Source: Bacteroidota bacterium (lineage in GTDB: Bacteria > Bacteroidota > Ignavibacteria > UBA10030 > SZUA-254). Taken from it: 64,000 bases of DNA. How positions within the stretch are numbered: position 1 is the first letter of the stretch; every line of letters starts with the position of its first letter. The stretch lies in the NCBI GenBank assembly GCA_020056225.1, contig JAGVIE010000031.1, forward strand, positions 1 to 64,000, written 5' to 3'. The notes beneath the pieces are model-generated. The model worked only from the letters and a program-made list of their open reading frames with translations. It made no database searches and was not told where the DNA came from. Position numbers and translations under genes: made by a program. Shown in pieces: positions 12,248 through 60,159 of the stretch.

Positions 12248-12285
12248 CGGCATAGTTCATCGTCTAATGTAGTGAATATTCATTT

Positions 12286-12335: not shown

Positions 12336-12349
12336 ATTGCATAAATCTC

Positions 12350-17364: not shown

Positions 17365-17474
17365 ATCAAAATATTTCTTATATTTAGTACCATAAGGTCT
17401 GAATATGGCTTTGAATTAGCAAAATACAAGGCGATGTTTCGGATATCAATAAATTAAGCGAGAAGATTGATTCC

Positions 17475-18968: not shown

Positions 18969-18993
18969 CTGTAACGATTTCATTGGGTGATAA

Positions 18994-19734: not shown

Positions 19735-19735
19735 T

Positions 19736-21690: not shown

Positions 21691-21701
21691 GAAAATTTAT
21701 C

Positions 21702-22157: not shown

Positions 22158-22178
22158 ATCCAATTTTGTGGTGTCAAT

Positions 22179-37899: not shown

Positions 37900-37901
37900 T
37901 C

Positions 37902-38441: not shown

Positions 38442-38447
38442 GGTGAT

Positions 38448-39392: not shown

Positions 39393-39406
39393 ACCCTCAC
39401 CCCTAA

Positions 39407-39431
39407 CCCCTCTCCCAGATTGGGAGAGGGG
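39407..39431. repeat. C-rich palindromic hairpin repeat
   Basis: A perfect 11 bp stem, CCCCTCTCCCA (39407-39417) and TGGGAGAGGGG (39421-39431), with a 3-base loop, preceded by CCCTCACCCCTAACC. This strongly resembles a dispersed intergenic repeat found in many unrelated bacterial genomes. It lies inside the sulfur operon between psrC and the transporter genes and could reduce read-through or protect the psr mRNA. Confidence 0.65.
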
Positions 39432-39496
39432 AACAGGGAGAGAGTAGAAAAATAATTTTTTAAAAAAATCTTAGAAAGTAATGAAAGGTTAATAAA

Positions 39497-40635: not shown

Positions 40636-40637
40636 TT

Positions 40638-43671: not shown

Positions 43672-45039
43672 ATGCTTTGTAAAACAATTCTAATCGTAGA
43701 TGATGAAAACCTGATAAGGTGGTCATTAAAACAAGAATTAGCCAAGATTGGTTTTACTATCTTCGAAGCAGAAAACATTAAGCAGGCATATTCCCTATTT
43801 CAGGAAAAAGACCCAGACGTTATAATTCTCGATCAGGTTCTTCCCGATGGAACCGGAATCGACCTGCTGACAGAAATTAAACTACAGAACAGTTTCACTC
43901 CGATCATTATGCTGACGGCGGTTGATCGTTCCCAAACAGCGGTACAGGCAATGAAATTAGGAGCGTTCGATTATGTAACAAAACCTGTAAACATGGAGGA
44001 ACTAATTGTTGTTCTTGAGAAGGCATGTGAATCCACTCACCTAAAACGACAAGTTGCACATTTCATCAAAAGCCAACAAAAGACATGCGGCTTCTACGGT
44101 CTTCTTGGATCGTCACCACCTATGAAACAAGTTTGCGAACAAATCAGCAAGATTGCCCAGAGCAGTGGAACAACGGTGCTTCTCACCGGAGAAAGCGGTA
44201 CGGGGAAAGAATTGGCGGCGAAAGCAATTCATCTCCGTAGTGAGCGTCGGGAGAAACCTTTAATACTGGTTAATTTTTCAGCTCTTACTGAGACACTTGT
44301 TGAAAGCGAGCTATTCGGTCATGAGCGTGGTGCATTTACAGATGCCCGCATACAAAAAAAGGGAATATTTGAAATCTCTGACGGCGGAACAATCCTCCTC
44401 GATGAAATCGGAGATATATCTCAGAAGATTCAGGTAAAGCTACTGAGGGTATTGGAGCAAAAAACATTTCAGCGTGTCGGCGGCACTTCAGATATTTCTG
44501 TCGATGTAAGAATTATCGCCGCAACAAATCAACCGCTGGAGCGGTTAGTAAGAGAGGGGAAATTCCGTTCTGATCTTTACTACAGGTTGAACGTGGCAAC
44601 TATCCTGCTTCCACCCCTTCGGGAACGCGGAGAGGATATATTATTATTGGCAGATTATTTCCTTAATGAATTTAATATCTCTTTTCATAAAAATTTTAAG
44701 GGCTTATCGGAAGATACAAAAAAGATGTTTCTCAATTATGAGTGGCCCGGTAACGTGCGGGAGCTGCGCAACGTCGTTGAGCGAGCTGTATTGATGGACG
44801 ATGGCGAATATATCTTCTCCCATCACGTTGAACTTGGGCATATACACTCATTGCGCCGTGAAAAGTCGGAGTTAGCCTTCGATCTCGATTCGGGCGGGCA
44901 CTCACTTGACTCAATTGAGAAGCAAATCCTAATTAAAGCGCTGGAAAAAACAAACCAGAACCAATCTCAAGCCGCAAAGATCCTAAAGATCAGCCGAGAC
45001 ACTCTGCGTTATAGAATGAAAAAGCATCATCTCCTCTAA
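43672..45039 (+). CDS. Sigma54-dependent response regulator, partner of the heme-sensor kinase
   Basis: An NtrC-type activator of 455 residues: receiver with Asp 54 ('IILDQVLPDG'), AAA+ domain with Walker A GESGTGKE, sigma54-contact loop GAFTDA (a known variant of GAFTGA), Walker B 'TILLDEIGD', and a C-terminal Fis-type helix-turn-helix ('AAKILKISRDTLRYRMKK'). It is encoded 6 bases after the heme-sensor kinase, so the two are a cognate pair. Strong sigma54-type promoters upstream of the 8-heme cytochrome gene and the T9SS cytochrome gene are its likeliest targets. Confidence 0.93.
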   Translation: MLCKTILIVDDENLIRWSLKQELAKIGFTIFEAENIKQAYSLFQEKDPDVIILDQVLPDGTGIDLLTEIKLQNSFTPIIMLTAVDRSQTAVQAMKLGAFDYVTKPVNMEELIVVLEKACESTHLKRQVAHFIKSQQKTCGFYGLLGSSPPMKQVCEQISKIAQSSGTTVLLTGESGTGKELAAKAIHLRSERREKPLILVNFSALTETLVESELFGHERGAFTDARIQKKGIFEISDGGTILLDEIGDISQKIQVKLLRVLEQKTFQRVGGTSDISVDVRIIAATNQPLERLVREGKFRSDLYYRLNVATILLPPLRERGEDILLLADYFLNEFNISFHKNFKGLSEDTKKMFLNYEWPGNVRELRNVVERAVLMDDGEYIFSHHVELGHIHSLRREKSELAFDLDSGGHSLDSIEKQILIKALEKTNQNQSQAAKILKISRDTLRYRMKKHHLL

Positions 45040-45251
45040 TTGTATAAGTCTGCTTATCGACCGGCGGTGAGTCTAATCCCTCATACAATGTCAAGATATT
45101 ACGCACCACCGCAGGGATATTCCACCGTATAATTGTGATTATTGAGATTTTCACAAGAAAACTATTCTCATTTAACTTGGCACACGCTTTGTCTTATTGT
45201 TTACATTCAGATCCAATTCGGGAACAACTTTACAATAAGTTTGAGACAAAG

Positions 45252-45638
45252 ATGAAAAAATCCAGTGCTAAAATATTGATTGTTGAAGATGAAGCGCTTA
45301 TCGGCTGGTCGCTCGCAAATGCTCTTAAGAAAGCCGGGTTCACTGTGGTAATTGCCGAGACCGGCGAGAAGGCTTTAGAAAAATTGAGTTCATCGGGATA
45401 CGATCTCGTAATTACAGATTTAAATCTTCCTCATATAGACGGATTCGAGGTTGCTTCATTTGTTAAAAAGTTTTCGTCTGATATACCGGTGTTGATGATG
45501 ACAACAAAAGATAAGAATTTTATGAATGACCCTGCGCATCTGACTAATGTCGATAACGTAATTGAAAAGCCGTTTAACCTAAAAGAGATTATTACGCTTG
45601 TGACTGAATATACTCATCGTAAAGCCGCCTGCAATTAA
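45252..45638 (+). CDS. Stand-alone receiver domain protein
   Basis: A 128-residue CheY-like receiver: acidic pocket 'VEDE', phospho-acceptor Asp 56 in 'VITDLNLPH', a Thr-Thr at 'LMMTTK' and the conserved Lys in 'VIEKPF'. It has no output domain. An open frame extends upstream to 45135, but the receiver begins at the Met at 45252. Placed after the kinase/regulator pair, it may act as a phosphate sink or cross-connector. A 7 bp hairpin GATAATG 45677-45683 / CATTATC 45695-45701 lies after its stop. Confidence 0.88.
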   Translation: MKKSSAKILIVEDEALIGWSLANALKKAGFTVVIAETGEKALEKLSSSGYDLVITDLNLPHIDGFEVASFVKKFSSDIPVLMMTTKDKNFMNDPAHLTNVDNVIEKPFNLKEIITLVTEYTHRKAACN

Positions 45639-45802: not shown

Positions 45803-45819
45803 TTGGCACCATTCATGCA
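45803..45819 (+). promoter_or_regulatory. Sigma54 (-24/-12) promoter of the 8-heme cytochrome operon
   Basis: TTGGCACCATTCATGCA contains the invariant GG and GC doublets with the required 10-base spacing, and TGGCAC is a full match to the -24 box; the -12 box is ATGC instead of TTGC. Transcription would start near 45830, just before the ATG at 45849. The sigma54 activator gene ends 0.8 kb upstream. Confidence 0.75.
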
Positions 45820-45848: not shown

Positions 45849-47072
45849 ATGACCAAAAAATCCTTTAAACTTATAGCATTGTGTATCACCTTTTGTGTTA
45901 TTTTCCTGGGTGATGCCCCCAAAAATGATCTGACGTTGATTCTTCCGACGCCAGGTGATACTGTTTCATATGATCAGGGAAAAACTATTTTAGTTTCGGT
46001 TTTAAAAGATGCGGGGGATCGCTTGTTAATTTCAACACAATGGGAAGTTGATAAGCTTGTAGATGTTAATACTAAAGCAACGAAAGATAATTTTGCTAAA
46101 GAATTTTATAAAATTTTCGAACCTCGTACATCTATCGAGCTTCTATCTTATTCATTTAAGTTTTACTCCGGGATGTCAAAACCCGATTCAATTATTTTCA
46201 GTTACTCAGACACTATGACATTACGTTCGTTCTGGCAGACTGCGAGATTTGCGGAGTTTTTGAAAGAAGTTCAATCGATAAATGCTTCTTCAATTTTTAT
46301 TAAGATACGTGGATGGAAGGACAGCATTTACACTACCACACATGAGGACCCGACAAGTGAAGGCAGAGCGCTCTATAAAATTCCCGTTCAACTGATACCC
46401 GACATGAATCGTATTTATTTTTCCATTCCCGGACAATCACAAAATGCGGGTGAATATTCAACACGGTTTATTGTTGATTCAAACCCAATCGATTCTAGTC
46501 CTGAACGATTTCATAATTCAAAACTTGAGCATAGTTGTACGCCGTGTCATGAGGGTCTTCCCAGCAGCAATCCTACGCAAGAAACAAATACTGATTGCGG
46601 CGTTTGCCACAAAGCTTTGATTGGCGGAAAGCTTGTCCACGGTCCCGCGGCTGATTCAAAAGAATGCGGTACTTGTCACTCTTGGTCATCCGAGAAAAAT
46701 GCTATGATAGTCACCAAGGGCGTTCCCGATGTATGTTACGATTGTCATGACGAAAAGAAAAAAGAGATTGAAGATTCAAAAGTGCCTCACCCTGTCGCAA
46801 ATGATTGTGTCTCGTGCCATTCACCGCATGGCTCAAATCAACCGGCTATTCTGAAGAAGGATGTTTATCGTCTGTGCCTTAATTGCCACGATAATTACAA
46901 ATCAAATCATCCGGTTGATAAACACCCTCTGCGGAGCGCAAAACTGAGCGACACAAATAACGAAGAGATTTCATGTGTAAGCTGTCATAAACCCCACGGC
47001 TCTGAAAACGCCGCGCTTCTTAAAGCCGGCGGAGGGTCGATGGCGATTTGTATGCAATGTCATCAAAAGTAA
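45849..47072 (+). CDS. Octaheme cytochrome c with novel N-terminal domain
   Basis: A 407-residue exported protein. The signal peptide is MTKKSFKLIALCITFCVIF-like. Residues about 25-215 form a heme-free domain I do not recognise, with beta-rich segments. The C-terminal half has eight CXXCH motifs: CTPCH, CGVCH, CGTCH, CYDCH, CVSCH, CLNCH, CVSCH and CMQCH, in the paired arrangement ('CHSPHGSNQPA', 'CHKPHGSENAA') of doubled-CXXCH proteins. It is first in the conduit operon behind a sigma54 promoter, and its 3' end overlaps the barrel gene by 16 bases, suggesting that the two proteins form a porin-cytochrome pair. Confidence 0.9.
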   Translation: MTKKSFKLIALCITFCVIFLGDAPKNDLTLILPTPGDTVSYDQGKTILVSVLKDAGDRLLISTQWEVDKLVDVNTKATKDNFAKEFYKIFEPRTSIELLSYSFKFYSGMSKPDSIIFSYSDTMTLRSFWQTARFAEFLKEVQSINASSIFIKIRGWKDSIYTTTHEDPTSEGRALYKIPVQLIPDMNRIYFSIPGQSQNAGEYSTRFIVDSNPIDSSPERFHNSKLEHSCTPCHEGLPSSNPTQETNTDCGVCHKALIGGKLVHGPAADSKECGTCHSWSSEKNAMIVTKGVPDVCYDCHDEKKKEIEDSKVPHPVANDCVSCHSPHGSNQPAILKKDVYRLCLNCHDNYKSNHPVDKHPLRSAKLSDTNNEEISCVSCHKPHGSENAALLKAGGGSMAICMQCHQK

Positions 47073-47995
47073 AAACATATTATCTGATAGTCCTTATTGT
47101 TTGTGCGACATATTCTACAGCCGCACAGCATTTTAACGGCCAGGGCATAATGAGCGGGACCGGCGTTGTTTTTGTTCCAACAACAGGCATTGCTCCCGTA
47201 GCACAATTTAGAGTTCAGTTGGGACGTGTCGAGTATCTCAGAAAAAATTTACGCGGATTAAATATTTTTGAACTCAACGGCGGGTTGTCTACAAATCTTG
47301 AAGGATATATTAAACTGTACAGTGAACAAACCGGCACTATCGTGTCGGCAACGTCATTCGGTATCGGAGGAAAATTTCAGATGCCGTTCAGACTTCCGCT
47401 CGTAGAACATCTGGCATTGTGGACAGAATCAATATCAAGCCAAAAGATCGATAGTACCGCAACATTTTCGCAAAACATTCTGCGCGGCGGGATCTCTGCC
47501 GGATTCAGGATTGGAAATTTTCAACCTACACTTTTTGCAGGCATTGCAAACGTGAAAAATAATTTTAGACCGATCGGCGGCTTCGGGATTCTTCTGCCGC
47601 TCAATTCGTCTGTAATGATAGGCGGAGAGTTATTTTACAATTATTTTTATCGCGACGATATCCATGAATCAATCACAGGCATCGTACGCCTATTGCCGAA
47701 TATAAGTTTACAGGTAAGCTCGGGCTATACATCATCCGCAAAACTCAAAAGCTGGATAATTACAGCAGGAATATCTGTGTCGACTGCTGATCTCGACTTC
47801 ACGCCAAAAGCTCCACTGCCCCAGCAAATGATTGTTCCATCAATAGAAGAGATGGAAAAGCTCTCCTCACAGGAAAAAGGAATCGGTCAGATAATAATAG
47901 ATCCGGCGAACGCTGGAATAGAGAAAAAAGATGAGAAGAATCAAGATCCGAAGGATGACAAGAAAGACGATAAACAAAATGAACCAAAGAAATAG
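47057..47995 (+). CDS. Outer-membrane beta-barrel protein (conduit partner)
   Basis: About 312 residues. The signal peptide ends near 'YSTAAQ', and residues 25-250 show alternating hydrophobic/polar strands with Gly and aromatic girdles ('FRIGNFQPTLFAGIANV', 'GGELFYNYFY'), the look of a 10-14-stranded outer-membrane barrel. The C-terminal 60 residues are a charged Lys/Asp tail (KKDEKNQDPKDDKKDD), probably periplasmic or exposed. I prefer the ATG at 47057 over a TTG at 47048; it lies inside the end of the 8-heme gene, so translation is coupled. No homologue could be named. It may be the sheath for the octaheme cytochrome. Confidence 0.7.
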   Translation: MSSKVKTYYLIVLIVCATYSTAAQHFNGQGIMSGTGVVFVPTTGIAPVAQFRVQLGRVEYLRKNLRGLNIFELNGGLSTNLEGYIKLYSEQTGTIVSATSFGIGGKFQMPFRLPLVEHLALWTESISSQKIDSTATFSQNILRGGISAGFRIGNFQPTLFAGIANVKNNFRPIGGFGILLPLNSSVMIGGELFYNYFYRDDIHESITGIVRLLPNISLQVSSGYTSSAKLKSWIITAGISVSTADLDFTPKAPLPQQMIVPSIEEMEKLSSQEKGIGQIIIDPANAGIEKKDEKNQDPKDDKKDDKQNEPKK

Positions 47996-48001
47996 ATACT
48001 T

Positions 48002-49021
48002 ATGAAAATGATATATCAGATACCGATAATTCTAGGAACGATATTAACTATGCTGTTCTTATTCGGATGCGGGTCGTCAAAAAACGCCCAGGCAGTAGAA
48101 GTTGTTTGGCCCAGTCCGCCGGATGAACCGCGAGTCAAGTACGTGCAAACATATCAAAGTGAAGACGATTTCAGTTCGAAATTGGGAGCTTTGACAAGAG
48201 CGCTTGCCGGAAAATCGTCAAACATACGTTTTGATAGGCCATTCGATGTTTGCGCTGATGATAGCGGCAGAATATATGTTTCAGATGTTTCGCTTGGCAT
48301 CATCATGATCGATCAAAGCGAAAAACAGATGGTGCCTTTAGGCGCCGAGGTTCCGGCGCCGTTAGGAAATACATTGGGAATTACCTGCGGCAACGGAAAG
48401 GTTTTTGTGGGTGTAGGTGAAATTGGCCAGGTTGTGGTATTGACTCCCGATGGAAAATACTTAGGCATCATCGGCAAACCCGGCGCTTTCCCAAACCCGG
48501 TCGATGTGGTTTATGATCACTTCGCCAAGAGGGTTATCGTAGTAGATAATAAATTGCACCAGGTGTTTGTCTATTCGGAAAATGGTGATTCACTTCTTAC
48601 TATCGGCAAACGAGGCGGAGAAGACGGTGAATTTAATTTTCCCCAGAGCGCGGCGGTCGATTCATCGGGGAATATATATGTAGTAGATGCATTCAATTTC
48701 CGCATTGAGGTTTTTAGTTCGGAAGGAAAATTTGAAAGAAAGTTCGGGCAACAAGGAAATATTTACGGAACATTTGCGCGCCCCAAGGGAATTGCCATTG
48801 ATTCGTACCAGAACATTTATATTATCGATGCCATCCATCAGAATTTTCAGATTTTCAACAATAAGTTTGAATTCCTCATGTTCATCGGTCGATTTTCGAA
48901 TAACGACAATTGGGGCTTTCAAAATCCGGTTGGCTTGTACGTCGATCAAAAAAATATGATTTATGTTGCCGATCAACTCAATCAACGGATTCAGGTGTTG
49001 CAATTGATTAAAGGAGATTAA
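48002..49021 (+). CDS. NHL-repeat beta-propeller lipoprotein 1
   Basis: A 339-residue lipoprotein with lipobox LFGC (Cys about 23) and a 6-bladed NHL propeller made of repeats 'FNFPQSAAVDSSGNIYVVDAFNFRIEVF' type (in parts) with 'KFGQQGN' linkers. After the Cys it has the shared signature 'VVWPSPPDEPRVKYV'; two other propellers at 51847 and 53652 carry the same signature. NHL propellers accompany outer-membrane cytochrome gene clusters in Geobacter, where their role is also unsettled; docking or scaffolding is plausible. It follows the barrel gene by 6 bases. Confidence 0.88.
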   Translation: MKMIYQIPIILGTILTMLFLFGCGSSKNAQAVEVVWPSPPDEPRVKYVQTYQSEDDFSSKLGALTRALAGKSSNIRFDRPFDVCADDSGRIYVSDVSLGIIMIDQSEKQMVPLGAEVPAPLGNTLGITCGNGKVFVGVGEIGQVVVLTPDGKYLGIIGKPGAFPNPVDVVYDHFAKRVIVVDNKLHQVFVYSENGDSLLTIGKRGGEDGEFNFPQSAAVDSSGNIYVVDAFNFRIEVFSSEGKFERKFGQQGNIYGTFARPKGIAIDSYQNIYIIDAIHQNFQIFNNKFEFLMFIGRFSNNDNWGFQNPVGLYVDQKNMIYVADQLNQRIQVLQLIKGD

Positions 49022-49112
49022 TTCCACTTCCTCATGTTGCCTCACGAGGATAAGGATTTTATTAAACCAGAGGCATACCTAATTCACAAAAATAACAATA
49101 AGGAGTTACAAT

Positions 49113-49817
49113 ATGAAACAGCTATTTTTCGTGGCAATCTTACTGCTGGTGATCGGTTCGTTCGCAGCAGCACAGACCCTGCCAGCAATGGCAAATGGCA
49201 AGCATGATTTCCGATATTCAAAGACACTTGGCTTTGGAATCAAAGGCGCATCAGAAGCGCTTTGCGGATATTGCCATACACCACACGTACCGGCAACCGG
49301 TGTTCCCACACCGCTCTGGTCACGTTCAATCACAAAGACCACAAACTATGGTCACTATACAAGCACTACAATGGATGCAACTACAGCTGATGTAGTTGGA
49401 ACCCAGGACAATGTCAGCGCAATGTGTATGAGTTGCCATGATGGAAGTGCTTTATTCACTTCTTCCGCATATGTAAAACGTCCATACGGCGGCACCAACA
49501 GTTGGACTGGTATCCAGGACAGTACGGTTAGAGATGGTTCGAACCTTTATAATGGCGTAAAGTATAATGGTTTGTCACACACTCATCCGGTAAATTTTGT
49601 ATATGCCGACGCAGCTGGCGATGCGGGCATTCATGCCACACCACTCGCGCTTGATACCTACGATGCTCCACGGTTATTCGATGGTAGAATGCAATGCGCA
49701 AGCTGTCACGAGCCGCACGAAGCAACTGATATGAGCGGTGCTTCACCAAGTTCACACAAATTTATCCAGATTACAACGGATAATAGTACACTGTGCATTT
49801 CATGTCATAACAAGTAA
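49113..49817 (+). CDS. Tetraheme cytochrome c, conduit type A
   Basis: A 234-residue exported cytochrome (signal MKQLFFVAIL...AAAQ) with CGYCH, CMSCH, CASCH and CISCH. The mature protein begins with 'GKHDFRYSKTLGFG' and has 'CHTPH' at the first heme and 'SHTHPVNFVY' and 'CHEPHEATD' later, the same layout as the cytochromes at 52910 and the N-terminal part of 54641, so the three are related. Ribosome-binding AAGGAG is 7 bases before the ATG. A stable hairpin follows, then the large barrel gene, suggesting it is the plug cytochrome of that barrel. Confidence 0.9.
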   Translation: MKQLFFVAILLLVIGSFAAAQTLPAMANGKHDFRYSKTLGFGIKGASEALCGYCHTPHVPATGVPTPLWSRSITKTTNYGHYTSTTMDATTADVVGTQDNVSAMCMSCHDGSALFTSSAYVKRPYGGTNSWTGIQDSTVRDGSNLYNGVKYNGLSHTHPVNFVYADAAGDAGIHATPLALDTYDAPRLFDGRMQCASCHEPHEATDMSGASPSSHKFIQITTDNSTLCISCHNK

Positions 49818-49831
49818 TATAAATGTTTACA

Positions 49832-49862
49832 AATGCGGTGCACTTTGATTGTGCACCGCATT
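49832..49862 (+). terminator. Strong intercistronic hairpin
   Basis: A perfect 12 bp stem, AATGCGGTGCAC (49832-49843) and GTGCACCGCATT (49851-49862), with a 7-base loop, directly after the tetraheme gene and 22 bases before the barrel start. The U-tract is missing, so it is more likely an mRNA-stabilising or attenuating element that raises the cytochrome:barrel ratio than a full terminator. Confidence 0.65.
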
Positions 49863-49883
49863 AAATAAAATTGGCAAGGGGAA

Positions 49884-51557
49884 TTGAAGCGAGTAATAAA
49901 CATATCGTTTTTACTGCTCATAATGGGTGTTCCATTATGGAGTCAGATTTCATCTATCAATGGAGAAATCCGTTATCAACATCAGTTTCAGGATTCAAGG
50001 ACCGCAGCGTCTTACTCCAAGCTTCTTCGAAAAAATCCCCAACTAACGCTTGGAACGACCGGTTTTCTTTACGCTCCATCTATACTATCGTTTAATCTTC
50101 AGTCCACGCTTAACCTCTATTATAATACAGTTACCGCCGGCGGTTTTTCTACATCATATAAACAATCGCTGTTTAATTATTATAATTTAGGAATCGACGC
50201 GCTTCAAAATTCAAAGGTCCGTGTTTCTTTCAATGCCCGTGATTTAGCGGTTGAATCATCATCCGGCAAGCGATTAGCATCCGAGGGTTTATCAAATCTC
50301 AGGCAGCAGGAACAACGGCTTACGCTTTCAATGTCGAATATTAAGTTTTTACCGACAACCATATTATATTTCTCCCGGACCCATAATTATTCCGATCTTG
50401 CAACACAGAATATTAATCAGCGTCAAAACGAGTTCTCGATCAACCTATCTCAGGCTACGCAGGATGGAATTTATAACATGACCGGAATGATAAATGAGAA
50501 CGTAGACAATATTTCAGGCAGACGGTTCAGTTATTCGCGGTTTCAGTTCAACGGCAGTAAAGAGTTTTCTCCCCTGCACCGCGTCGATATTAATACCGAA
50601 TATTCAAACTACTCATCCGTCTCCTATCTGAGCGGGAACGGTATCTACAACGGATCGGCTGGTGAAAAATTTCGTCTAAGCACTACGCTTCAGGGAAGGA
50701 ATACATTGTCTTCTATGATGTCGTCTACGATCATTGGAGCCGGGCAGGTTGTACAATACCGCCAAAATGAAAATTTCCAATACTCGTGTAATTTTCAAAA
50801 TCAATACGGCAACGACATGTTTTTATCCGATTCGATCAGCAATAAGACGTTCACGAACATTTGGAATACATCGGCATCTGTCCAGCACACAAGACCGATC
50901 GGTAAATTCACTATAACCAACGACCTAAACTTCGGATATGGTCAACAGCGGTCAAACGTAGAACAGAATTCGGCTACAATAGGAATAAATAATTCATTAC
51001 AAACGGCGATCTCAACTTTTCAACTTATCGGAAATCAAGGAATCACGTTTACCAGAGTTTCCCGATATACACCGCGGGACGAAATAAATAATTTTGTCAA
51101 TGCCAATATTACCGGCATGTTACCGTACGGCATCACTACCCAGACAGGCATCGATTTCCGTAACGAGCGCCGCTTCCGAACGCTCGAATACCGGTACAGC
51201 CGCCAAACATTAACATTCAACGAGCTGATGAGCGCTTCTTTCTATTATCATATTCCCTTCACGATCTTGCTCGGAACTACTTTTAATTGGATGTGGAACG
51301 ATATCAACGGCTATTCTTACGGTGTAAATGGAATGTTCAGCAGTAATCATTTATTTTTGGACGGACTTGCAATGAGTTACCGTTTCAACCGGATGTACGA
51401 TATTTATTATCAAAGACCGAACTTTGAGCACACTGTCGAGCTGTCTTATCAATGGCGCTCATTATATTTTCAAGTGCGGCTCCAAGAATTCCGGTTTGTC
51501 GATGTCCGGCATGATTTGTGGTTTATCGTTACACGACCTATTAACATCGGATTATGA
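49884..51557 (+). CDS. Large outer-membrane beta-barrel (MtrB/PioB-like role)
   Basis: A 557-residue protein with signal peptide (MKRVINISFLLLIMGVPLWSQ) and many alternating strands of 9-12 residues separated by polar turns; it ends in an aromatic/hydrophobic strand and a short hydrophobic tail. No Cys-heme site is present. Length and strand number suggest about 22-26 strands, the size of barrels that house cytochromes in porin-cytochrome conduits, although I see no MtrB signature. The start codon is TTG at 49884, preceded by AAGGGGA, a strong ribosome-binding site; no upstream ATG is available. It is flanked by cytochrome and NHL genes. Confidence 0.8.
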   Translation: MKRVINISFLLLIMGVPLWSQISSINGEIRYQHQFQDSRTAASYSKLLRKNPQLTLGTTGFLYAPSILSFNLQSTLNLYYNTVTAGGFSTSYKQSLFNYYNLGIDALQNSKVRVSFNARDLAVESSSGKRLASEGLSNLRQQEQRLTLSMSNIKFLPTTILYFSRTHNYSDLATQNINQRQNEFSINLSQATQDGIYNMTGMINENVDNISGRRFSYSRFQFNGSKEFSPLHRVDINTEYSNYSSVSYLSGNGIYNGSAGEKFRLSTTLQGRNTLSSMMSSTIIGAGQVVQYRQNENFQYSCNFQNQYGNDMFLSDSISNKTFTNIWNTSASVQHTRPIGKFTITNDLNFGYGQQRSNVEQNSATIGINNSLQTAISTFQLIGNQGITFTRVSRYTPRDEINNFVNANITGMLPYGITTQTGIDFRNERRFRTLEYRYSRQTLTFNELMSASFYYHIPFTILLGTTFNWMWNDINGYSYGVNGMFSSNHLFLDGLAMSYRFNRMYDIYYQRPNFEHTVELSYQWRSLYFQVRLQEFRFVDVRHDLWFIVTRPINIGL

Positions 51558-51681
51558 TAAGGAGACTGAACAAGGTGAGATATAGTCGTGAACTGGGTAT
51601 TTCTTATGAAATAACAAACAATGAAAAAAATAGTCGGATAGCAGATTCTTCCTCTCAGCAATCCCCCTTGCCAGAGGAAAC

Positions 51682-51728
51682 GGATTGGAGTTGTTCGCCC
51701 CATCTTGATGGGGCGGGCACTCCAGTCC
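51682..51728. repeat. Two-part hairpin in the barrel-NHL gap
   Basis: Within the 289-base gap 51558-51846, GCCCCATC-TT-GATGGGGC (51697-51714) forms an 8 bp hairpin, enclosed by GGATTGGAGT (51682-51691) and ACTCCAGTCC (51719-51728) pairing over 10 bases with one T-G pair. It may be a weak terminator, processing site or dispersed repeat. The 74-codon frame running across it is probably not a gene. Confidence 0.55.
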
Positions 51729-51846
51729 AATTTATTAATTTACTAAGAAAATGCGGATTGATTGAAATAAATCAATAGTGTGACGCAGGTAAACAACTAT
51801 TCAAATTAAAACAACTATTTTAAAAGCACAAAAAAAGAATATCAGG

Positions 51847-52860
51847 GTGATTAGATCGTTCGTCATAGTATCCTTAATAATTATATCTCTGTTTTTTTGT
51901 GGTTGCGGTACTACACAAGAAACTGTCCCGGATTATTTCTGGCCCTCTCCGCCCGAAAAACCACGAATCAAATTCGTGGGTCTCATTCACGGAAAAGATT
52001 ATTTTGAAAAGACAGGCGTAGATAAATTATTAAGCACTCTCGCCGGTGAAACCGCCGGCTCTGCCTTTGAGCGTCCCTACGCTGTAGCTGTCGATGCATT
52101 GGGAAGTATTTACGTTACCGATACCAGCCTGAAAAAAATTCTTATCTTCGATATAGAAAAAAAGAAATTCCGTAGTATTGGAGACCGGGGAACGGGAAAA
52201 CTTAATACTCCGATTGGAATTGCGGTAACACCATCACGAAAGATATTTGTTGCAGATTCAAAATTAAAACGCGTATTGGCTTTCGACCAGGACGGAACTC
52301 TTCTTTATGGAATTGGTGAAGAAAATGAATTCGCTTCACCTACCGGTATTGCTTTCGATTCAGTATCTCAAAAACTTTACGTTGTGGATACAAATAATCA
52401 TCTTGTGCGCGTTTACACCGAAGACGGCAAATTTCTTTTCTCTTTTGGAAAGCGCGGCGGCGGAGACGGTGAATTTAACTTTCCGACGAATATAGCTATT
52501 GCAGGAAACAGGGTTTATGTCGTAGATACAATTAATGGACGTGTTCAAATTTTCGGACTCGACGGCAAGTTCATAACTAAATTCGGAGAACTTGGAAATG
52601 CCGCCGGACATTTTTCTCGTCCCAAGGGAATCGCAATCGATTCATTTGGTCATATCTATGTAGTCGATGCGGCATTCGATAATTTCCAAATTTTCAATGA
52701 TAACGGTCAGCCCTTAATGTTTGTCGGTCAAGCCGGCAGTGGTATAGCGGGGTTCCAACTACCGGCAGGCATTTGCATCGATAAAAACAATTTTATATAT
52801 ATTGTCGATCAGCTTAATTCACGGGTTCAGGTATTTCAGTTCATCGACAATGAATTATAA
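51847..52860 (+). CDS. NHL-repeat beta-propeller lipoprotein 2
   Basis: A 337-residue paralogue of the propeller at 48002. The start is GTG. A short leader ends at 'SLFFCGC', giving a lipidated Cys at about 17 or 19, then the shared signature 'YFWPSPPEKPRIKFV' and six NHL blades ('FNFPTNIAIAGNRVYVVD', 'FSRPKGIAIDSFGHIYVVD', in parts). It precedes a tetraheme cytochrome gene by 49 bases, repeating the NHL-cytochrome order seen earlier. Confidence 0.88.
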   Translation: MIRSFVIVSLIIISLFFCGCGTTQETVPDYFWPSPPEKPRIKFVGLIHGKDYFEKTGVDKLLSTLAGETAGSAFERPYAVAVDALGSIYVTDTSLKKILIFDIEKKKFRSIGDRGTGKLNTPIGIAVTPSRKIFVADSKLKRVLAFDQDGTLLYGIGEENEFASPTGIAFDSVSQKLYVVDTNNHLVRVYTEDGKFLFSFGKRGGGDGEFNFPTNIAIAGNRVYVVDTINGRVQIFGLDGKFITKFGELGNAAGHFSRPKGIAIDSFGHIYVVDAAFDNFQIFNDNGQPLMFVGQAGSGIAGFQLPAGICIDKNNFIYIVDQLNSRVQVFQFIDNEL

Positions 52861-52909
52861 TAGTAAACGATCATCTGTACAATCTCAACACAATAAAAAG
52901 GAATAATAA

Positions 52910-53587
52910 ATGAAATTCGTTCTAATCGTCGCTGTAGTTCTGCTAATCGTCGCGATCACGGGTTCCGCGCAAATTCGAAATAGTAAACACGACTTGTCGT
53001 TCACTTCAACCGCAACAACAAAAACTACTTCGAGCAGTTATACTGAGGTCTGTGTGTTTTGCCATACCCCACACTCATCCGACAACACAAGTCTTTTGTG
53101 GAATAGAACCTACTCCAATGCAACTTATCAGGTCTATTCAAGCCCGACCATGGAACAGGCGGTTCCCCAACCGGGCGGTGTTTCAAAGAACTGCCTGAGC
53201 TGCCATGACGGCACTGTAGCTTTGGCAAGCGTAATCAACAACCCCGGTTCAAGCGGAGGGATACAACCGGTATTTTCAGGAACAGGCATGATCGACACAA
53301 CCGGATTTACCGGAATGGGGATGAACCTGACGAACGATCATCCGATAAGCTTTGTGTATAATACAAGCCAGGCAACCGATCCCGATCTTCGCGCGGCAAC
53401 CGTTACGGGAAGCAAGGTAACAGTTTCAAATGCCGGCACCTCATTAACGCTTTATGGTACTACAGCCGCAACTGCCACTTTGGAATGTGGAACATGTCAC
53501 GATCCTCACGGTGTTAGCGGCGTTCCAACTTTTTTACGGGCATCGAACGACGCCAGCGTGCTTTGTTTTACATGTCATATTAAATAG
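52910..53587 (+). CDS. Tetraheme cytochrome c, conduit type B
   Basis: A 225-residue exported cytochrome (signal MKFVLIVAVV...TGSAQ) with CVFCH, CLSCH, CGTCH and CFTCH. 'SKHDLSFTS', 'CHTPHSSDNTSLLWNR', 'CLSCHDGTVAL' and 'NDHPISFVYN' match the N-terminal part of the 54641 product and, less closely, the 49113 product. AAGGAA lies before the ATG. Three paralogous heme modules within 6 kb point to local duplication, perhaps giving parallel conduits or a chain across the outer membrane. Confidence 0.9.
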   Translation: MKFVLIVAVVLLIVAITGSAQIRNSKHDLSFTSTATTKTTSSSYTEVCVFCHTPHSSDNTSLLWNRTYSNATYQVYSSPTMEQAVPQPGGVSKNCLSCHDGTVALASVINNPGSSGGIQPVFSGTGMIDTTGFTGMGMNLTNDHPISFVYNTSQATDPDLRAATVTGSKVTVSNAGTSLTLYGTTAATATLECGTCHDPHGVSGVPTFLRASNDASVLCFTCHIK

Positions 53588-53651
53588 TGGCATGCATGGA
53601 GAACGTCTCTTTGATTCTAAGAAGAAAATTGCTTTCATTGTATCCGATCAT

Positions 53652-54638
53652 ATGAGATTATTCATATATATATTATTTTTTTCTTTTGGCTTTCATTTAT
53701 TTATATGTCGGGCTGAAAGCCAGACTCTTGTCTGGCCCCCGCCTCCCGAGAAGGCGCGGATAAAACATCTTCAGACAGTTTCCTCATTGAAAGACGTTTC
53801 CAGCGAGCCTGGCTTTTTCTCAAAAGTTTTTAGTTTCATATTCGGCGGAACTATGGTTTCACAATGGCTGACCCAGCCTGTTGGTATCGCAATATCAAAA
53901 GATGGTCTGCTGTATATTGCCGATCCCGGCATCAAGGGTATCCACATACTTGATCTTCAGGAAAAAGAATACAGCTTCATCGGTGAAACAAAATTTGGAA
54001 CTTTCATCTCTCCGGTCGCTCTTGCATTTGCGGCAAATGGGGATTTATATATATCGGATTCGGAGCGGCGGGAAATAATTGTGCTGAGCGCGGATCGTAC
54101 TCCGCTTTTTTCTATTAAAGATAGTCTTGTCAGGCCAACCGGCATTCGCATTTTCAATAATAAATTGTACGTTGCTGATGCGGGGAAAAATAAAATATTG
54201 GTTTTTAGTTTAGATGGACGCTTCGCGTTCGAATTTGGACGAAGAGGTGTCGATCATGGTGAATTCAATTTCCCTGTACAGTTAACGGCAAACGATTCAT
54301 TATACGTTGTTGATGGGATGAATTTCCGGATTCAACAGTTCACACATGAAGGAAAATATGTCTCTTCTTTCGGGCAAATCGGAAATACTGCGGGATATTT
54401 TGCAAACCCTAAATCAATAGCCCTGGATTCAGATGGACATTTATACGTCACTGATGCTTTGCTGGATAACTTCCAAATCTTCGATAGCGCCGGAAAATTA
54501 TTGTTGGTAGTCGGATCAAAAGGAATCTCCGATGGCGAATTTCTAAGCCCCAGCGGAATTGCCATTGACAGCAACGATAATATTTATATTATCGATTCTC
54601 TCAACAAGCGGATTCAAATATTTAAATATCTGAGATAG
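53652..54638 (+). CDS. NHL-repeat beta-propeller protein 3
   Basis: A 328-residue propeller paralogue. The frame is open upstream into the previous cytochrome gene, but the Met at 53652 gives a proper signal peptide (MRLFIYILFFSFGFHLF). It carries the signature 'LVWPPPPEKARIKHL' and six NHL blades. Unlike the other two, the leader has no clear lipobox (LFIC lacks the small residue before Cys), so it may be soluble in the periplasm or secreted. It ends 2 bases before the large conduit cytochrome gene, so the two are tightly linked. Confidence 0.87.
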   Translation: MRLFIYILFFSFGFHLFICRAESQTLVWPPPPEKARIKHLQTVSSLKDVSSEPGFFSKVFSFIFGGTMVSQWLTQPVGIAISKDGLLYIADPGIKGIHILDLQEKEYSFIGETKFGTFISPVALAFAANGDLYISDSERREIIVLSADRTPLFSIKDSLVRPTGIRIFNNKLYVADAGKNKILVFSLDGRFAFEFGRRGVDHGEFNFPVQLTANDSLYVVDGMNFRIQQFTHEGKYVSSFGQIGNTAGYFANPKSIALDSDGHLYVTDALLDNFQIFDSAGKLLLVVGSKGISDGEFLSPSGIAIDSNDNIYIIDSLNKRIQIFKYLR

Positions 54639-54640
54639 CA

Positions 54641-56524
54641 ATGCGCCTATTGAATTATATCATACTCATAACCGTAAGTATTCTTCTTCAGGTTTCTGCG
54701 TGGTCGCAAAGTATAGTGAACACTAAGCATAACCTGAGCATAACGGGACCCGGAGCGATAAAAGCGTCGGGTGAGACTCAGGTCTGTGTTTTCTGCCATA
54801 CTCCCCACAGTAAACAGGCTACTGTTCAACTCTGGAATCACCAGCCAACCGCGGCAAACTATTCGCTTTATAGCAGCGATTATCTGACATCAAAAAGTTA
54901 TCCTTCAGGAAGTCAGCCGAACGAGAAATCTAAATTATGCCTTGCTTGCCACGATGGAACAATTGCAATCGGAGCTGTTTATAATACAACTGCATCCGGT
55001 TCCATTGGAACAATAGCTTTATCAGGCGGCGTCACAACTATCCCCGCCGGGTCTGCGTCCAACTTAGGCACGGCATTTATGAATGATCATCCGGTAGGAT
55101 TTGGTTATGATCCCACAAAAGATGCCGAACTTGTTTCCCGTTCATGGCCCTGGACATCTGCTGTGAAATTGAGTCCCAATACTGCGGAAGGAAAAGTTGA
55201 ATGTCCCACTTGCCATGAACCTCATAATAATACTAACGGAAAGTTCTTGCAGATATCAAACATAAATGCCGCGCTTTGTGCATTTTGTCATAATAAAACT
55301 AACTGGGCTGGGTCTATTCACAAAACTTCAACACAAAGTTATACACCAACCGGATCAGCTACAACAACCATTGGCGAGTGGTCGTGCCGAAACTGTCATC
55401 AATCGCATAACGGACAGGGCGTTCCGTATCTGCTTAAATTACCTGAAGAGAACACATGTTATCAAACAGGCTGTCACGGTACAACATCCACCGGTGTAAA
55501 CACAAAAAATATTCAAACACAAGCAAATAAAACTTACAAACATCCGGTTAACACAATCAGCGGCTTACATAAAAATCCTGATAACTCAACAAGTCTCAAT
55601 GTACCTAATCGCCATGCGGAGTGCTATGATTGTCATAATCCACATCAGGCAAAAGATGGATTACATACATTGAAAAGTAATGCGGTATCGAATGTGTTGA
55701 CTGGTGCATGGGGTGTTACTCCAGGTTCCGCAACAATTTGGACTCAACCTACATCATTTACTGTAACCAATCCTGTGGTTCAGGAAAACCAGATTTGCTT
55801 TAAATGTCATTCATACTATGGGTTAGGCGTGGCGGTAACCGGCGTTACAACAATACTTGGTCCTTCCGGCATCAATCTTACGGATCAGGCAATGGAATAT
55901 AATATTGCAAACAAATCTGTACATCCGGTGAGTGTCTCACTCAACAATCAAACAGGCGCAACCACTCCGAGACCTCTTGCTGCAGCTCAAATGTCGGCAG
56001 CTTGGAATGGAGTTGGAACACAAACGATGTATTGCTCTGACTGCCACGGGAACGACCAACCGACATCTACAACTGTGCCTCAAGGACCACACGGCTCAGC
56101 CTATAAATTCATGCTCACCGGTAATGCGAAATATTGGCCCCTGAATGCTGCCGGCTCTCTTTGGACTCTTGACGATATCAGAAATAATCGCAACAATTGG
56201 TCAACCAATCTTTTTTGCGTAAACTGTCACCCAATATACTCGGGAGGGACATGGAGAAACAATGTCCACTCAAGAAGTAATCATCAGGGAGCCGGGATTA
56301 AATGCGTTGCTTGTCATGTCACTGTACCCCACGGATCAAAACGTTCACGTCTGATCGGGTATAGAACAGATATATCACCATATAATTACAATGGAACGGG
56401 TCAATATGAAAAATTGGTTATAAGTGGATTTCGAAAAGCATCGGGCCCGAACAGCTATAGTACATCCAACTGTACCTTCACCAGCGGTTGCCATGGAACT
56501 GAATCCGGAACATTTGAACCTTAA
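54641..56524 (+). CDS. Large multiheme cytochrome c, 10 CXXCH plus 2 variant sites
   Basis: A 627-residue exported cytochrome. The signal peptide ends near 'SAWSQ'. Residues about 25-225 repeat the tetraheme conduit module (CVFCH, CLACH, CPTCH, CAFCH); the rest adds CRNCH, CYDCH, CFKCH, CSDCH, CVNCH and CVACH, plus two variant sites, CYQTGCH (CX4CH) and CTFTSGCH (CX5CH, close to the C-terminus). If the variants bind heme, the total is twelve. Size and heme number are like outer-surface cytochromes such as OmcB, but homology is not claimed. No lipobox or T9SS tail was found. Confidence 0.9.
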   Translation: MRLLNYIILITVSILLQVSAWSQSIVNTKHNLSITGPGAIKASGETQVCVFCHTPHSKQATVQLWNHQPTAANYSLYSSDYLTSKSYPSGSQPNEKSKLCLACHDGTIAIGAVYNTTASGSIGTIALSGGVTTIPAGSASNLGTAFMNDHPVGFGYDPTKDAELVSRSWPWTSAVKLSPNTAEGKVECPTCHEPHNNTNGKFLQISNINAALCAFCHNKTNWAGSIHKTSTQSYTPTGSATTTIGEWSCRNCHQSHNGQGVPYLLKLPEENTCYQTGCHGTTSTGVNTKNIQTQANKTYKHPVNTISGLHKNPDNSTSLNVPNRHAECYDCHNPHQAKDGLHTLKSNAVSNVLTGAWGVTPGSATIWTQPTSFTVTNPVVQENQICFKCHSYYGLGVAVTGVTTILGPSGINLTDQAMEYNIANKSVHPVSVSLNNQTGATTPRPLAAAQMSAAWNGVGTQTMYCSDCHGNDQPTSTTVPQGPHGSAYKFMLTGNAKYWPLNAAGSLWTLDDIRNNRNNWSTNLFCVNCHPIYSGGTWRNNVHSRSNHQGAGIKCVACHVTVPHGSKRSRLIGYRTDISPYNYNGTGQYEKLVISGFRKASGPNSYSTSNCTFTSGCHGTESGTFEP

Positions 56525-56565
56525 TGCCTGCAATCAAATTTTATTTATCGTATAAAGGAAGCCAT

Positions 56566-57897
56566 ATGAAACGATCAGGATTATTATTAATTCTTATATT
56601 CTTTCTTTGCAGTTTATCTTCAATATGCGCGCAGGAAAAGGAATCATGCGTGAACGGCAAGTGCCACGCAGCAATGGGGAAAGCGAAGTTTATCCACGGT
56701 CCTGTTGCTATCGGCGAATGCTTATCATGTCATCAACGGATCAAAGACGAAAAGCATAAATTCATTCCAGCAACAAACTCAGAAGAATTGTGCAACAAAT
56801 GCCACGAACCGATGGAGAAAAAGGGTAATGTGCATTCGCCTGTTGCTAAAGGGGAATGCACAAAGTGCCATGATCCTCACCAATCGGATAGGCAATTTCA
56901 ATTAAGGAAATCTTCAACGAGCCAGCTCTGTTTTTCGTGCCATCCCAAAAATCTGACATCAAAAAAATATACTCACGGTCCTGCGGCAGAGGGTGAATGC
57001 TTATCGTGTCATCTTCCGCACATGAGTGAGAAACCAAAATTGCTTTCGAAAGCCACCAACGATTTATGTTTTCAGTGTCATACAGATTTTCAGGAAACTT
57101 TTGCAGCGGCAAAAAACATCCATAAACCGGCTCGTGAAAATTGCGCACAATGTCACAATCCGCACAGCGCTGACGCGAAATATTTACTCGCCAGCAATGC
57201 ACCCGATCAATGTTACACTTGCCACCCTGCTATTCAGGCAGCGGCAACCAAATCTACCGTAAAGCACGCCGCTCTTGACGGTGAGAAAAAATGTTTGACG
57301 TGCCATTCGCCCCATACCGCAGTTCATATTAAACAATTAACAGAAGAGCCGATGTCGCTTTGTTTAAAATGCCACGATAAATCATTGCCCGCAAGCGGGG
57401 GAAACCTTGCCGATATGAAAATGTTGTTCGATAAAAATATTAACTGGCATGGACCAATACGCGAGCGAGATTGTTCTGGATGCCATGAAGTGCATGGCTC
57501 AGAAAATTTCCGTCTGTTGACTCAAACATATCCAGCGGAATTTTATTCACCTTACGCTCCTGAAAAATACGAGCTTTGTTTTAACTGTCATCAAAATACG
57601 CTTGTACAGGATCCGACAACAATGACTTTGACCGGTTTCCGGGATGGAAATCGCAATCTTCATTATCTCCATGTAAACAAAAAGGTAAAGGGGCGCACAT
57701 GCCGAGCATGTCACGAAACACATGCGAGTAATCATGACCGCCACATACGTGAAGCCGTTCCTTTTGGTCAATGGGTTCTACCGATAAAATTTGAGAAAGA
57801 ATCGGGAGGCGGTAAATGTTCTCCGGGGTGTCATGCGTCGGCAACATATAAAAGAAATAAAGCCGAGACACGATTAGAAAAAACGGACGAGGAATAA
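56566..57897 (+). CDS. Large multiheme cytochrome c, 13 CXXCH plus 2 variant sites
   Basis: A 443-residue exported cytochrome made of tandem units 'HGPVAxGECLSCHxPHxS...CxxCH' of about 35-40 residues. Thirteen CXXCH sites run from CLSCH to CRACH; in addition, CVNGKCH (CX4CH) opens and CSPGCH (CX3CH) closes the chain. The Met at 56566 has AAAGGAA before it and a good signal peptide (MKRSGLLLILIFFLCSLSSICAQ, in parts); the upstream frame to 56524 is rejected. The regular repeat suggests a wire-like extended shape. It follows the 54641 gene by 41 bases. Confidence 0.9.
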   Translation: MKRSGLLLILIFFLCSLSSICAQEKESCVNGKCHAAMGKAKFIHGPVAIGECLSCHQRIKDEKHKFIPATNSEELCNKCHEPMEKKGNVHSPVAKGECTKCHDPHQSDRQFQLRKSSTSQLCFSCHPKNLTSKKYTHGPAAEGECLSCHLPHMSEKPKLLSKATNDLCFQCHTDFQETFAAAKNIHKPARENCAQCHNPHSADAKYLLASNAPDQCYTCHPAIQAAATKSTVKHAALDGEKKCLTCHSPHTAVHIKQLTEEPMSLCLKCHDKSLPASGGNLADMKMLFDKNINWHGPIRERDCSGCHEVHGSENFRLLTQTYPAEFYSPYAPEKYELCFNCHQNTLVQDPTTMTLTGFRDGNRNLHYLHVNKKVKGRTCRACHETHASNHDRHIREAVPFGQWVLPIKFEKESGGGKCSPGCHASATYKRNKAETRLEKTDEE

Positions 57898-57924
57898 TTG
57901 TTAGCCGCACTTTTGGGGTTAGCT

Positions 57925-59007
57925 ATGAATATGATGAAAACGCAAGCGATTGTTTTATTTGTCATTTTAATTGCTGTAACACATTGTTACGGTCAGTTGC
58001 CGCTGCAAACATCTGCTCCAAATTTTGCTTTGAAAGACGCAGATGGAAACCCCTGGTCAACCGATAAACATATTACCGGAAAATTTACAATTATATTATT
58101 CTGGGCAACCTGGGGACACGATTCTATCGAAATGATCGATACTGTTGAAGAATTGTATAAGCGGTATCATTCACAGGGATTTGAGGTTGTTGGTGTATGC
58201 GTAGAGCAGCAAACTATTTCAGATTCATTGAAGCATCGAATCAGTGAAACAATAAAAAAGAAAGAAATATCATTTCCGATTGTTTTCGATGACCAGCTTA
58301 AAACTTTCCGTCTATATAATGTGATCGCTGTTCCAACGACCTTTGTCGTTGATGAGCAAGGAAAATTTGTTTATCATCTTGCAGGTTTTACTATTGTAGG
58401 AAGGGAACAACTGTTCGAGTTTGTACGCGAACGATTTGAAGGGAAATGCAATTTTACGGTACAACATAAATTTTCTCGTCTACCCGATAAACATGCATTG
58501 CGTCTTTTTAACATGGCAAGTATGAAATTCAACCGTGGCGAACTCGACACCGCAAAAAAATATGCACAAGAATCCGCCGCGCTAGACAGTGGTTTTGCGG
58601 AACCTTTGATACTGTTGAGTGAAATCGCGACAGAAGAATCTGATTTTATTTTGGCTGAAGAAAATATTTCCATTGCTCTGCGAACCATGCCCGGCTCGAT
58701 CGAAGCACAGAGTTTGTCGGGATTAATTGCCGCCAAGCATGGAGACACAACACGCGCTTTGGAAATTCTGAAAAAAGTATTACAACAATCCGACACTATT
58801 GCTGTTGCGCATTGTTATTTGGGATATCTCTTTGGAATCACGGGCAATCTTAGCGGCTCTGAAGAAGAAATGAATCGCGCCGCAGAACTTTCTCCTTCGG
58901 ATTACAGGATTCCAATGCTTCGAGCCGAATTATTGGAGAAAGCCGGGAAGATAAACGTAGCCAAAGAATTGAAGAAGAAAGCAAAACAATTACGCCGGAA
59001 GCGATAA
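57925..59007 (+). CDS. TlpA-like thioredoxin-fold protein with TPR tail, CXXC missing
   Basis: About 360 residues: signal peptide, a TlpA/AhpC-type thioredoxin domain (residues about 25-165: 'APNFALKDADGNPW', 'IILFWATW', 'VPTTFVVDEQG' with the cis-Pro), then four or so TPR helices (about 190-350). The redox motif that should follow 'WATW' is GHDS instead of CxxC (positions 64-67), so it cannot act as a thiol oxidoreductase in the usual way. As last gene of the conduit operon it may be a chaperone or scaffold for apocytochromes. Starts at 57925, 57931 and 57934 are all possible. Confidence 0.85.
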   Translation: MNMMKTQAIVLFVILIAVTHCYGQLPLQTSAPNFALKDADGNPWSTDKHITGKFTIILFWATWGHDSIEMIDTVEELYKRYHSQGFEVVGVCVEQQTISDSLKHRISETIKKKEISFPIVFDDQLKTFRLYNVIAVPTTFVVDEQGKFVYHLAGFTIVGREQLFEFVRERFEGKCNFTVQHKFSRLPDKHALRLFNMASMKFNRGELDTAKKYAQESAALDSGFAEPLILLSEIATEESDFILAEENISIALRTMPGSIEAQSLSGLIAAKHGDTTRALEILKKVLQQSDTIAVAHCYLGYLFGITGNLSGSEEEMNRAAELSPSDYRIPMLRAELLEKAGKINVAKELKKKAKQLRRKR

Positions 59008-59046: not shown

Positions 59047-59529
59047 TTATTTTCTATGGCAATAAACACAAAGGTTGCCCTGAAATGTTTTTTTCGTTCC
59101 TTCGACATCAACACCGCATTCATTCCCCTCAGAATTTGTTTCCACCGACAACGAGGCAAGTAGTTGCGGCTTCGCAACATGGCAACTTAAACATCCAATT
59201 TTTCCATCAATAAGTTTAATGTTTACATTCAAAGCTCCCACCGGCACGTACCCGCGTGGATTTTTATTTTCAGATTCTGTGTATGGCATTCCGATAGAAT
59301 GGTTTTTTGTTCTCATCCAAAGACCGCGGTCAAATTCTATGGGTGCACTCACCGGTCGCAATTCAATCGTTGGTCCGTCTGAACCATTATGGCATTTCAT
59401 GCAATGTTGCGATTCATAATCAAGTTGAGATGGCGGAATACGAATTGATCCGCGATTTTGACTAAATACGCTAAGGGCGATCAGGTTGATCGCAATCAGG
59501 ATTAATCCATATTTTAATTTCATCCGCAT
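59047..59529 (-). CDS. Small triheme cytochrome c
   Basis: A 160-residue exported cytochrome on the minus strand, convergent with the TlpA-like gene. The signal peptide is MRMKLKYGLILIAINLI-like, ending near 'SVFSQ'. CMKCH, CLSCH and CVYCH are the heme sites; the last is four residues from the C-terminus. 'FDRGLWMRTKNHSIGMPY' may supply a distal His or Met. The frame reaches 59577, but AGAGAA before 59529 favours the later start. The partner is unknown; a periplasmic shuttle is plausible. Confidence 0.82.
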   Translation of the reverse strand: MRMKLKYGLILIAINLIALSVFSQNRGSIRIPPSQLDYESQHCMKCHNGSDGPTIELRPVSAPIEFDRGLWMRTKNHSIGMPYTESENKNPRGYVPVGALNVNIKLIDGKIGCLSCHVAKPQLLASLSVETNSEGNECGVDVEGTKKTFQGNLCVYCHRK

Positions 59530-60159
59530 ACCGTTCTCTAATCTTTCGATCAGATAGGTTGCAATTTTGTGCCACAATCTTTCTCAAAAAAACTTCTCTA
59601 ATCCGGCTGAAAACTACGTTTCTCACGATAGAGTGTAATCGGAATGCAATAATTTCAACTATATATTTAGAATATTCTACAATTTATAAGTTATCCTGAT
59701 AATCAACATTCGGGAAATTATATTTCTTGTCTTGTTGTACTGCTGAAATATTTTATCTACGCAATATTTCTTTGTTAAAATTATTTTCCCTTTAATCATA
59801 AATGTGTTCACATTATTCCTTCCAACTGAAAAGATTTAGCACGCTCCGCCACGTTACAACTTCTCTTGACGTATATGATAATCTTATTATTTATTGATGT
59901 TAATTCTCCTGCATCATTTATTGAAATATTTAACTTGGATTCGATTAAAATCTCACACTCGATAGTCATCTTCACTTAATAAATACGGATTAAATTCTCG
60001 TCATCTTTATTTCTGGATATCAAAAAAATGGCTTGAAGGTATATTTTCATATGGCCTCATCTGGGCTAATACCCTCACTCCAATTTCTCACATTTGATAG
60101 AATATTGTTGAATTGGAAGATTAATTAAGTTATTTCGAACAGGTACGGGATGCACCCAA
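59530..60159. other. Long divergent intergenic region
   Basis: About 630 A/T-rich bases between the triheme gene and the T9SS cytochrome. They contain a perfect AATGTG-TT-CACATT palindrome at 59801-59814 and a sigma54-like string before the minus-strand gene (59561-59576, read as TGGCACAAAATTGC), whose GG-to-GC spacing is 9 rather than 10 bases. No small gene, tRNA or clear repeat was found. The length suggests room for distant activator sites. Confidence 0.4.

Follow-up and report, generated by a model that had tools for sequence, protein, structure and literature searches.

A probable Kapabacteria/Chlorobi-group variant of the Uet gene cluster, combining OmcE-type cytochromes, NHL propellers, and a large predicted outer-membrane barrel

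The 64,000-nucleotide stretch of DNA analysed here (the window), from a member of the Bacteroidota, carries an operon of cytochrome, propeller, and barrel genes on its forward strand, at positions 45849-59007. It begins with an octaheme gene and ends with a thioredoxin-TPR gene, and is wider than the interval 47057-57897 of the original prediction; every gene named there is present at its coordinates. The operon is tightly packed: several gene junctions overlap or measure 0-6 nt, and the maximum gap is 289 nt. A regulatory cassette, starting at 42163, precedes it on the same strand.

The cassette encodes a sensor histidine kinase (42163-43665; HisKA/HATPase_c) with one CxxCH motif in its periplasmic sensor; an NtrC-type σ54-dependent response regulator (43672-45039; Response_reg, Sigma54_activat, and HTH_8 domains); and a receiver-domain protein (45135-45638, given as the longest ORF; translation probably begins further downstream). 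The kinase CxxCH (heme c) motif is kept in homologues near OmcE-like loci from Geobacteraceae relatives, KSB1, Calditrichota, and Bacteroidales. The NtrC regulator shares 45-50% identity with regulators beside OmcE-like genes in loci L117, L118, L119, L052, L054, and L100, and the position of the receiver gene is conserved in L012, L013, L017, L019, and L021. A candidate σ54 (−24/−12) promoter, TGGCACCATTCATGCA (45804-45819, forward strand), matches 10 of 11 consensus bases and lies 29 nt 5' of the octaheme gene, the first of the operon. Sites at similar distance occur before the operon or the receiver gene in L012, L013, L017, and L021. Sites matching at least 10 of 11 positions number three per strand here versus 0.45 in shuffled sequence; at a threshold of at least 9 of 11, raw counts in the window are no higher than chance. 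The candidate promoter is argued from position and from these stricter matches only. The kinase is likely a regulator of the cluster, and heme or redox sensing would drive σ54-dependent transcription.

The operon proper opens with the octaheme cytochrome (45849-47072; eight CxxCH motifs), which has an N-terminal non-heme domain. It matches the octaheme of Geobacteraceae omcE loci (hhalign probability 100, E 2e-40); its N-terminal part alone does not (probability 7). A putative small outer-membrane-protein-like barrel of about 312 residues (47057-47995) comes next, followed by NHL propeller lipoprotein 1 (48002-49021; lipobox LFGC), OmcE-family tetraheme cytochrome 1 (49113-49817), and a large, UetC-like outer-membrane barrel of 557 residues (49884-51557). 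Beyond the barrel lie NHL propeller lipoprotein 2 (51847-52860; lipobox CGC), OmcE-family tetraheme cytochrome 2 (52910-53587), NHL propeller 3 (to 54638, from an uncertain start at 53652 or 53592), a 12-site cytochrome (54641-56524), a 15-site paired-CXXCH cytochrome (56566-57897; Paired_CXXCH_1 E 5e-68), and a thioredoxin-fold (AhpC/TSA) protein with TPR repeats (57898-59007), conserved in L012. The operon contains no triheme cytochromes; a 3-site cytochrome is encoded on the opposite strand at 59047-59577, and is kept in L012, L014, L015, and L021. No cluster protein scanned contains a rotamase (PPIase) domain.

The family of the source lineage shares a common order: heme-sensor kinase, NtrC regulator, receiver, octaheme, small barrel, NHL, tetraheme, barrel, (NHL, tetraheme), NHL, undecaheme-type, (15-site, thioredoxin-TPR). 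Minus the small barrel, this core recurs in L021, and in L141, which represents a different family within the class.

In phmmer searches of the PDB, tetraheme 1 (E 3.9e-16), tetraheme 2 over its full length (E 9.4e-35), and the 12-site protein in its N-terminal third (residues 10-219; E 1.4e-31) all match the OmcE filament structure 7TFS. They also match 9YUQ, a 16-chain multiheme cytochrome entry (E 1.9e-16 for tetraheme 1). By sequence, OmcE-family membership holds for both tetrahemes and for the 12-site protein up to about residue 220. The tetrahemes, which the original prediction had cast as conduit cytochromes, belong to a filament family. In OmcS and OmcE filaments, a histidine ligand is shared between adjacent subunits. 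An alignment of 68 tetraheme relatives, including OmcE itself (7TFS), contains the four heme-motif histidines along with exactly four other conserved histidines, which is what a bis-His heme filament requires if one ligand passes to the neighbouring subunit. The predicted heme-site counts of 4, 4, 12, and 15 hold once CX3-5CH motifs are included: ten CxxCH, one CX4CH, and one CX5CH in the 12-site protein; and thirteen CxxCH, one CX3CH, and one CX4CH in the 15-site protein. The best NCBIfam matches to the latter are GSU2203/DmsE-type decahemes, under the cut-off.

The 12-site protein consists of an OmcE-like N-terminal domain followed by eight additional heme sites. In a 30-sequence alignment it is a member of the undecaheme (UetJ-like) family, with the same layout and 12 sites. 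The twelfth, C-terminal heme motif takes the form CX3CH in 21 of the 30 sequences and CX5CH in six, the CX5CH form being that of the source lineage and L021. The family has 13 conserved non-motif histidines for its 12 heme motifs; among them are the histidines that match the OmcE domain, and H227, which follows the fourth heme and is invariant. A limited literature search found no published description of the twelfth motif or of the spare histidine. Thirteen candidate ligands for 12 motifs suggest an end-piece that donates a histidine to the filament. The sequence pattern is suggestive of a filament-to-barrel adaptor, although the conserved histidine could serve other roles. The AlphaFold model of the 12-site protein has a pLDDT of only 48.5, and no structural support is drawn from it.

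The three propellers match Pfam NHL with E 1e-19, 4e-35, and 5e-30, in gene order, as predicted. The shared signature proposed for them, WPSPPExPRIK, is present in variant form in all three (WPSPPDEPRV, WPSPPEKPRI, and WPPPPEKARI, the last continuing with K), yet is not special to this locus. A loosened WPSPP-type motif occurs in 78 of the family's 136 NHL ORFs versus two of 1199 other ORFs from the same loci, and therefore marks the propeller family generally. The regular pairing of NHL proteins with cytochromes far exceeds chance and is conserved across phyla: of the genes no more than two positions from an OmcE-like cytochrome, 96 of 417 encode NHL proteins, versus three of the 277 that lie at least five genes away. 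PMC9769857 depicts such pairing in Desulfovibrio ferrophilus, and PMC12016550 remarks on it in Geoalkalibacter. On the basis of this conserved pairing, the NHL proteins are parts of the same machine.

The 557-residue protein is predicted to form a barrel of 28 strands, with an N-terminal signal-like helix and no plug (AlphaFold2, 24 relatives; pLDDT 90.1), in keeping with its original reading as a barrel. It matches no Pfam or NCBIfam family, MtrB_PioB included, so the reported absence of an MtrB signature stands. Foldseek returns only generic large barrels, LptD, ushers, and TonB receptors, at TM scores no higher than 0.41, and MtrB is not among the best 50 matches. Profile comparisons detect no relation to the ~750-residue barrel of Geobacteraceae omcE loci (hhalign probability 17) or to the 312-residue barrel. 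For this smaller protein, the outer-membrane-protein-like barrel fold is putative, and all Pfam families score below the cut-off. It is present only in the source lineage's family and near kin, where its gene occupies the same place in L012-L017, L019, and L020.

An iterated profile of the large barrel finds relatives at 48 of 79 OmcE-like loci, and 44 of these barrels lie no more than three genes from the cytochrome; the profile picked up zero reversed-sequence decoys. Going by record titles, the barrels come from Bacteroidota, Calditrichota, KSB1, Zixibacteria, Nitrospirota, Nitrospinota, Gemmatimonadota, Planctomycetota, Verrucomicrobiota, Campylobacterota, Desulfobacterota, and Pseudomonadota. 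The profile was run on OmcE-like loci only, so this association is biased by design. Genome-wide searches provide a less biased test, and all 20 barrels that they found sit in OmcE-like/NHL clusters. The barrel is sparse, occurring in 11 of 80 near relatives and in five of 394 members of the phylum.

A gene-neighbourhood survey had been proposed as a check on the conservation of the set, and the module does recur, in about 12 phyla: an OmcE-like tetraheme, NHL, a pentaheme or PPIase, barrel, NHL, and undecaheme. Most frequently the genes run tetraheme, NHL, pentaheme lipoprotein, barrel, NHL, undecaheme. A SurA-like PPIase is encoded immediately 5' of the barrel in Sulfurimonas, in one Nitrospirae locus, and in several Proteobacteria.

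This module has a published counterpart. The Uet cluster (uetABCDEFGHIJ; Tenderiales, Gallionella) comprises the undecaheme UetJ, tetraheme UetA, trihemes UetD/E/G, PPIase UetB, NHL proteins UetH/I, and barrel UetC (PMC10734462, PMC12575090). The source cluster likewise brings together a tetraheme of the UetA type, at least two NHL proteins of the UetH/UetI type, a barrel, and an undecaheme of the UetJ type. Moreover, the barrels of Proteobacterial loci with Uet gene content and an adjacent PPIase belong to the same family as the 557-residue barrel; to Tenderia itself, the likeness is one of published component list. The source cluster lacks a PPIase and co-directional trihemes; it has tandem NHL-tetraheme pairs plus an additional small barrel, an octaheme, and a 15-site cytochrome; its barrel is 557 residues long versus about 650 in Uet; and its undecaheme homologue contains CX4CH/CX5CH heme motifs.

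Other systems resemble it in part. The source tetrahemes share four CxxCH motifs and full-length homology with Geobacter OmcE (7TFS), and the left half of the cluster shares the octaheme-NHL-tetraheme-barrel order of Geobacteraceae omcE loci, whose ~750-residue barrel-like protein is without detectable kinship and has no undecaheme adjoining; the right half, made up of barrel, NHL, and undecaheme, is that of Uet. The omcS companion Osc of G. sulfurreducens is alike by description, with an OmcE/OmcS-type cytochrome, a β-propeller, and channel-like proteins; OscEFG and OscH are likened by description only, and OscH is a PPIase, which the source cluster lacks. MtrCAB, PioAB, and PCC also join an outer-membrane barrel to multiheme partners, but the source cytochromes are of OmcE type rather than a decaheme MtrA. 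Finally, the OetABI plus OmcS/OmcX cassettes of syntrophic sulfate reducers place a barrel-cytochrome set beside nanowire-type cytochromes, although Oet, by description, uses periplasmic OetA and the lipoprotein OetB.

The locus is most likely a Kapabacteria/Chlorobi-group variant of the known but little-studied Uet kind: PPIase-free, with duplicated propeller-tetraheme pairs, a small barrel, an octaheme, and, in the cassette before the operon, a σ54 regulator and heme-sensor kinase. The best overall explanation, to which we give a probability of about 0.72, is that the locus is such a variant and makes an OmcE-type wire attached to the barrel. Family memberships, gene order, co-conservation, and the predicted barrel fold are direct results; from them we infer polymerisation, the propeller and adaptor roles, electron flow through the barrel and its direction, and regulation. 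The OmcE-type tetrahemes would be exported and then polymerise into conductive surface filaments. The NHL propeller lipoproteins, one per OmcE-like cytochrome, would serve that cytochrome as anchors or assembly factors. The 557-residue barrel would provide passage across the outer membrane, and might hold a cytochrome, export subunits, or both. The 12-site protein of the undecaheme family, with its OmcE-like first domain, would join the filament to the barrel, and would also link to periplasmic carriers such as the octaheme and the 15-site cytochrome. The heme-sensing kinase and the σ54 regulator would turn the cluster on.

A serious competitor, somewhat short of an even bet, holds that the barrel is chiefly an Osc-like pore through which nanowire subunits are secreted or assembled, and not an insulating sheath around a conducting cytochrome, with the propellers as chaperones. 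PMC13194489, in its summary of the Osc study, gives Geobacter OscE/F/G a role in secretion, OscD one in morphology, and OscH one in folding. The SurA-like PPIase gene that lies directly 5' of the barrel at some loci of Proteobacteria, Nitrospirae, and Sulfurimonas points the same way; a wide pore without a plug suits export, and one propeller per OmcE-like cytochrome fits dedicated chaperones. However, the undecaheme and octaheme are conserved partners that pure secretion does not need, and a pentaheme lipoprotein immediately adjoins the barrel in many loci.

The original prediction instead saw a possible new porin-cytochrome conduit family. Its porin-cytochrome logic survives in that the locus does encode a barrel-plus-multiheme system, and the novelty might seem to gain from a barrel that falls in no Pfam or NCBIfam family and has no detectable kinship to its ~750-residue counterpart. 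Yet the cytochromes are of OmcE type, and the set of barrel, undecaheme, tetraheme, and NHL proteins agrees with published Uet in content, order, and partners. Because the wider module is Uet, with a make-up near that of Geobacter Osc, a new family is improbable. Ordinary substrate porins, lying by chance in a cytochrome island, are far less probable still. Multiheme genes abound in the window, and the barrels are known from predictions; against chance stand the 20 of 20 barrels in OmcE-like/NHL clusters, and 28 strands without a plug do not fit the substrate-porin plan. For the large barrel, the substrate-porin reading is rejected on these two grounds.

Within the reading of a barrel-attached wire, a more specific proposal is offered tentatively, as rather doubtful: that the undecaheme family is a built-in filament adaptor, whose OmcE module mates with the nanowire via a shared heme ligand, and whose remainder, with the twelfth heme, enters the 28-strand barrel.

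Together, these results extend Uet-type loci to the Kapabacteria/Chlorobi group, in a simplified form without PPIase, and a heme-sensing σ54 circuit seems to accompany OmcE-like loci from Geobacteraceae to Bacteroidota. The field has yet to settle how cytochrome nanowires exit the cell and connect to the periplasm. Filament subunit, large barrel, propeller, and chimeric undecaheme adjoin in many phyla, making the junction directly testable. If the adaptor proposal is true, the undecaheme protein would be the missing link that joins cytochrome nanowires to the outer membrane, common to about 12 phyla.

Beside the cluster, on the opposite (minus) strand, lies a small cytochrome with three heme-binding sites (59047-59577). 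This gene is retained next to the cluster in four compared loci: L012, L014, and L015, which carry the window's family or its near kin, and L021, which has the core gene order without the small barrel. The three-site protein is a possible counterpart of the triheme cytochromes UetD/E/G of the published Uet cluster.

Downstream, a 912-aa multiheme protein (60226-62964) bears a C-terminal sorting domain of the type IX secretion kind, and its gene is accompanied by a sigma54-like site (60160). Next comes its 627-aa multiheme relative at locus L138 (342-2225), with a similar C-terminal tail.

The same genome contains a second OmcE-like locus (L137 in G000:C26, 10013-14445), ordered OmcE-like tetraheme, NHL protein, and 15-site cytochrome; this order resembles both one group in L021 and Geobacteraceae loci L117-L119. 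In Geobacteraceae omcE loci (L113-L116 and L121), OmcE is followed immediately by a barrel-like protein of about 750 aa, which lacks a Pfam family and is another candidate barrel for nanowire export or conduit function.

Elsewhere, the window encodes a bidirectional-type (sulfhydrogenase-like) NiFe hydrogenase operon including a maturation protease (2049-7701, minus strand). The region 35710-41291 encodes a polysulfide-reductase-like molybdopterin oxidoreductase together with its Fe-S and NrfD-type subunits; after these come YeeE-type transporters and a rhodanese-like protein. Multiheme and membrane genes are densely packed at 11693-24739, encoding octaheme-like and NapC-type cytochromes along with NrfD-like, Fe-S, Rieske, and cytochrome b proteins. 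This block looks like a quinone-linked respiratory chain that supplies periplasmic cytochromes.
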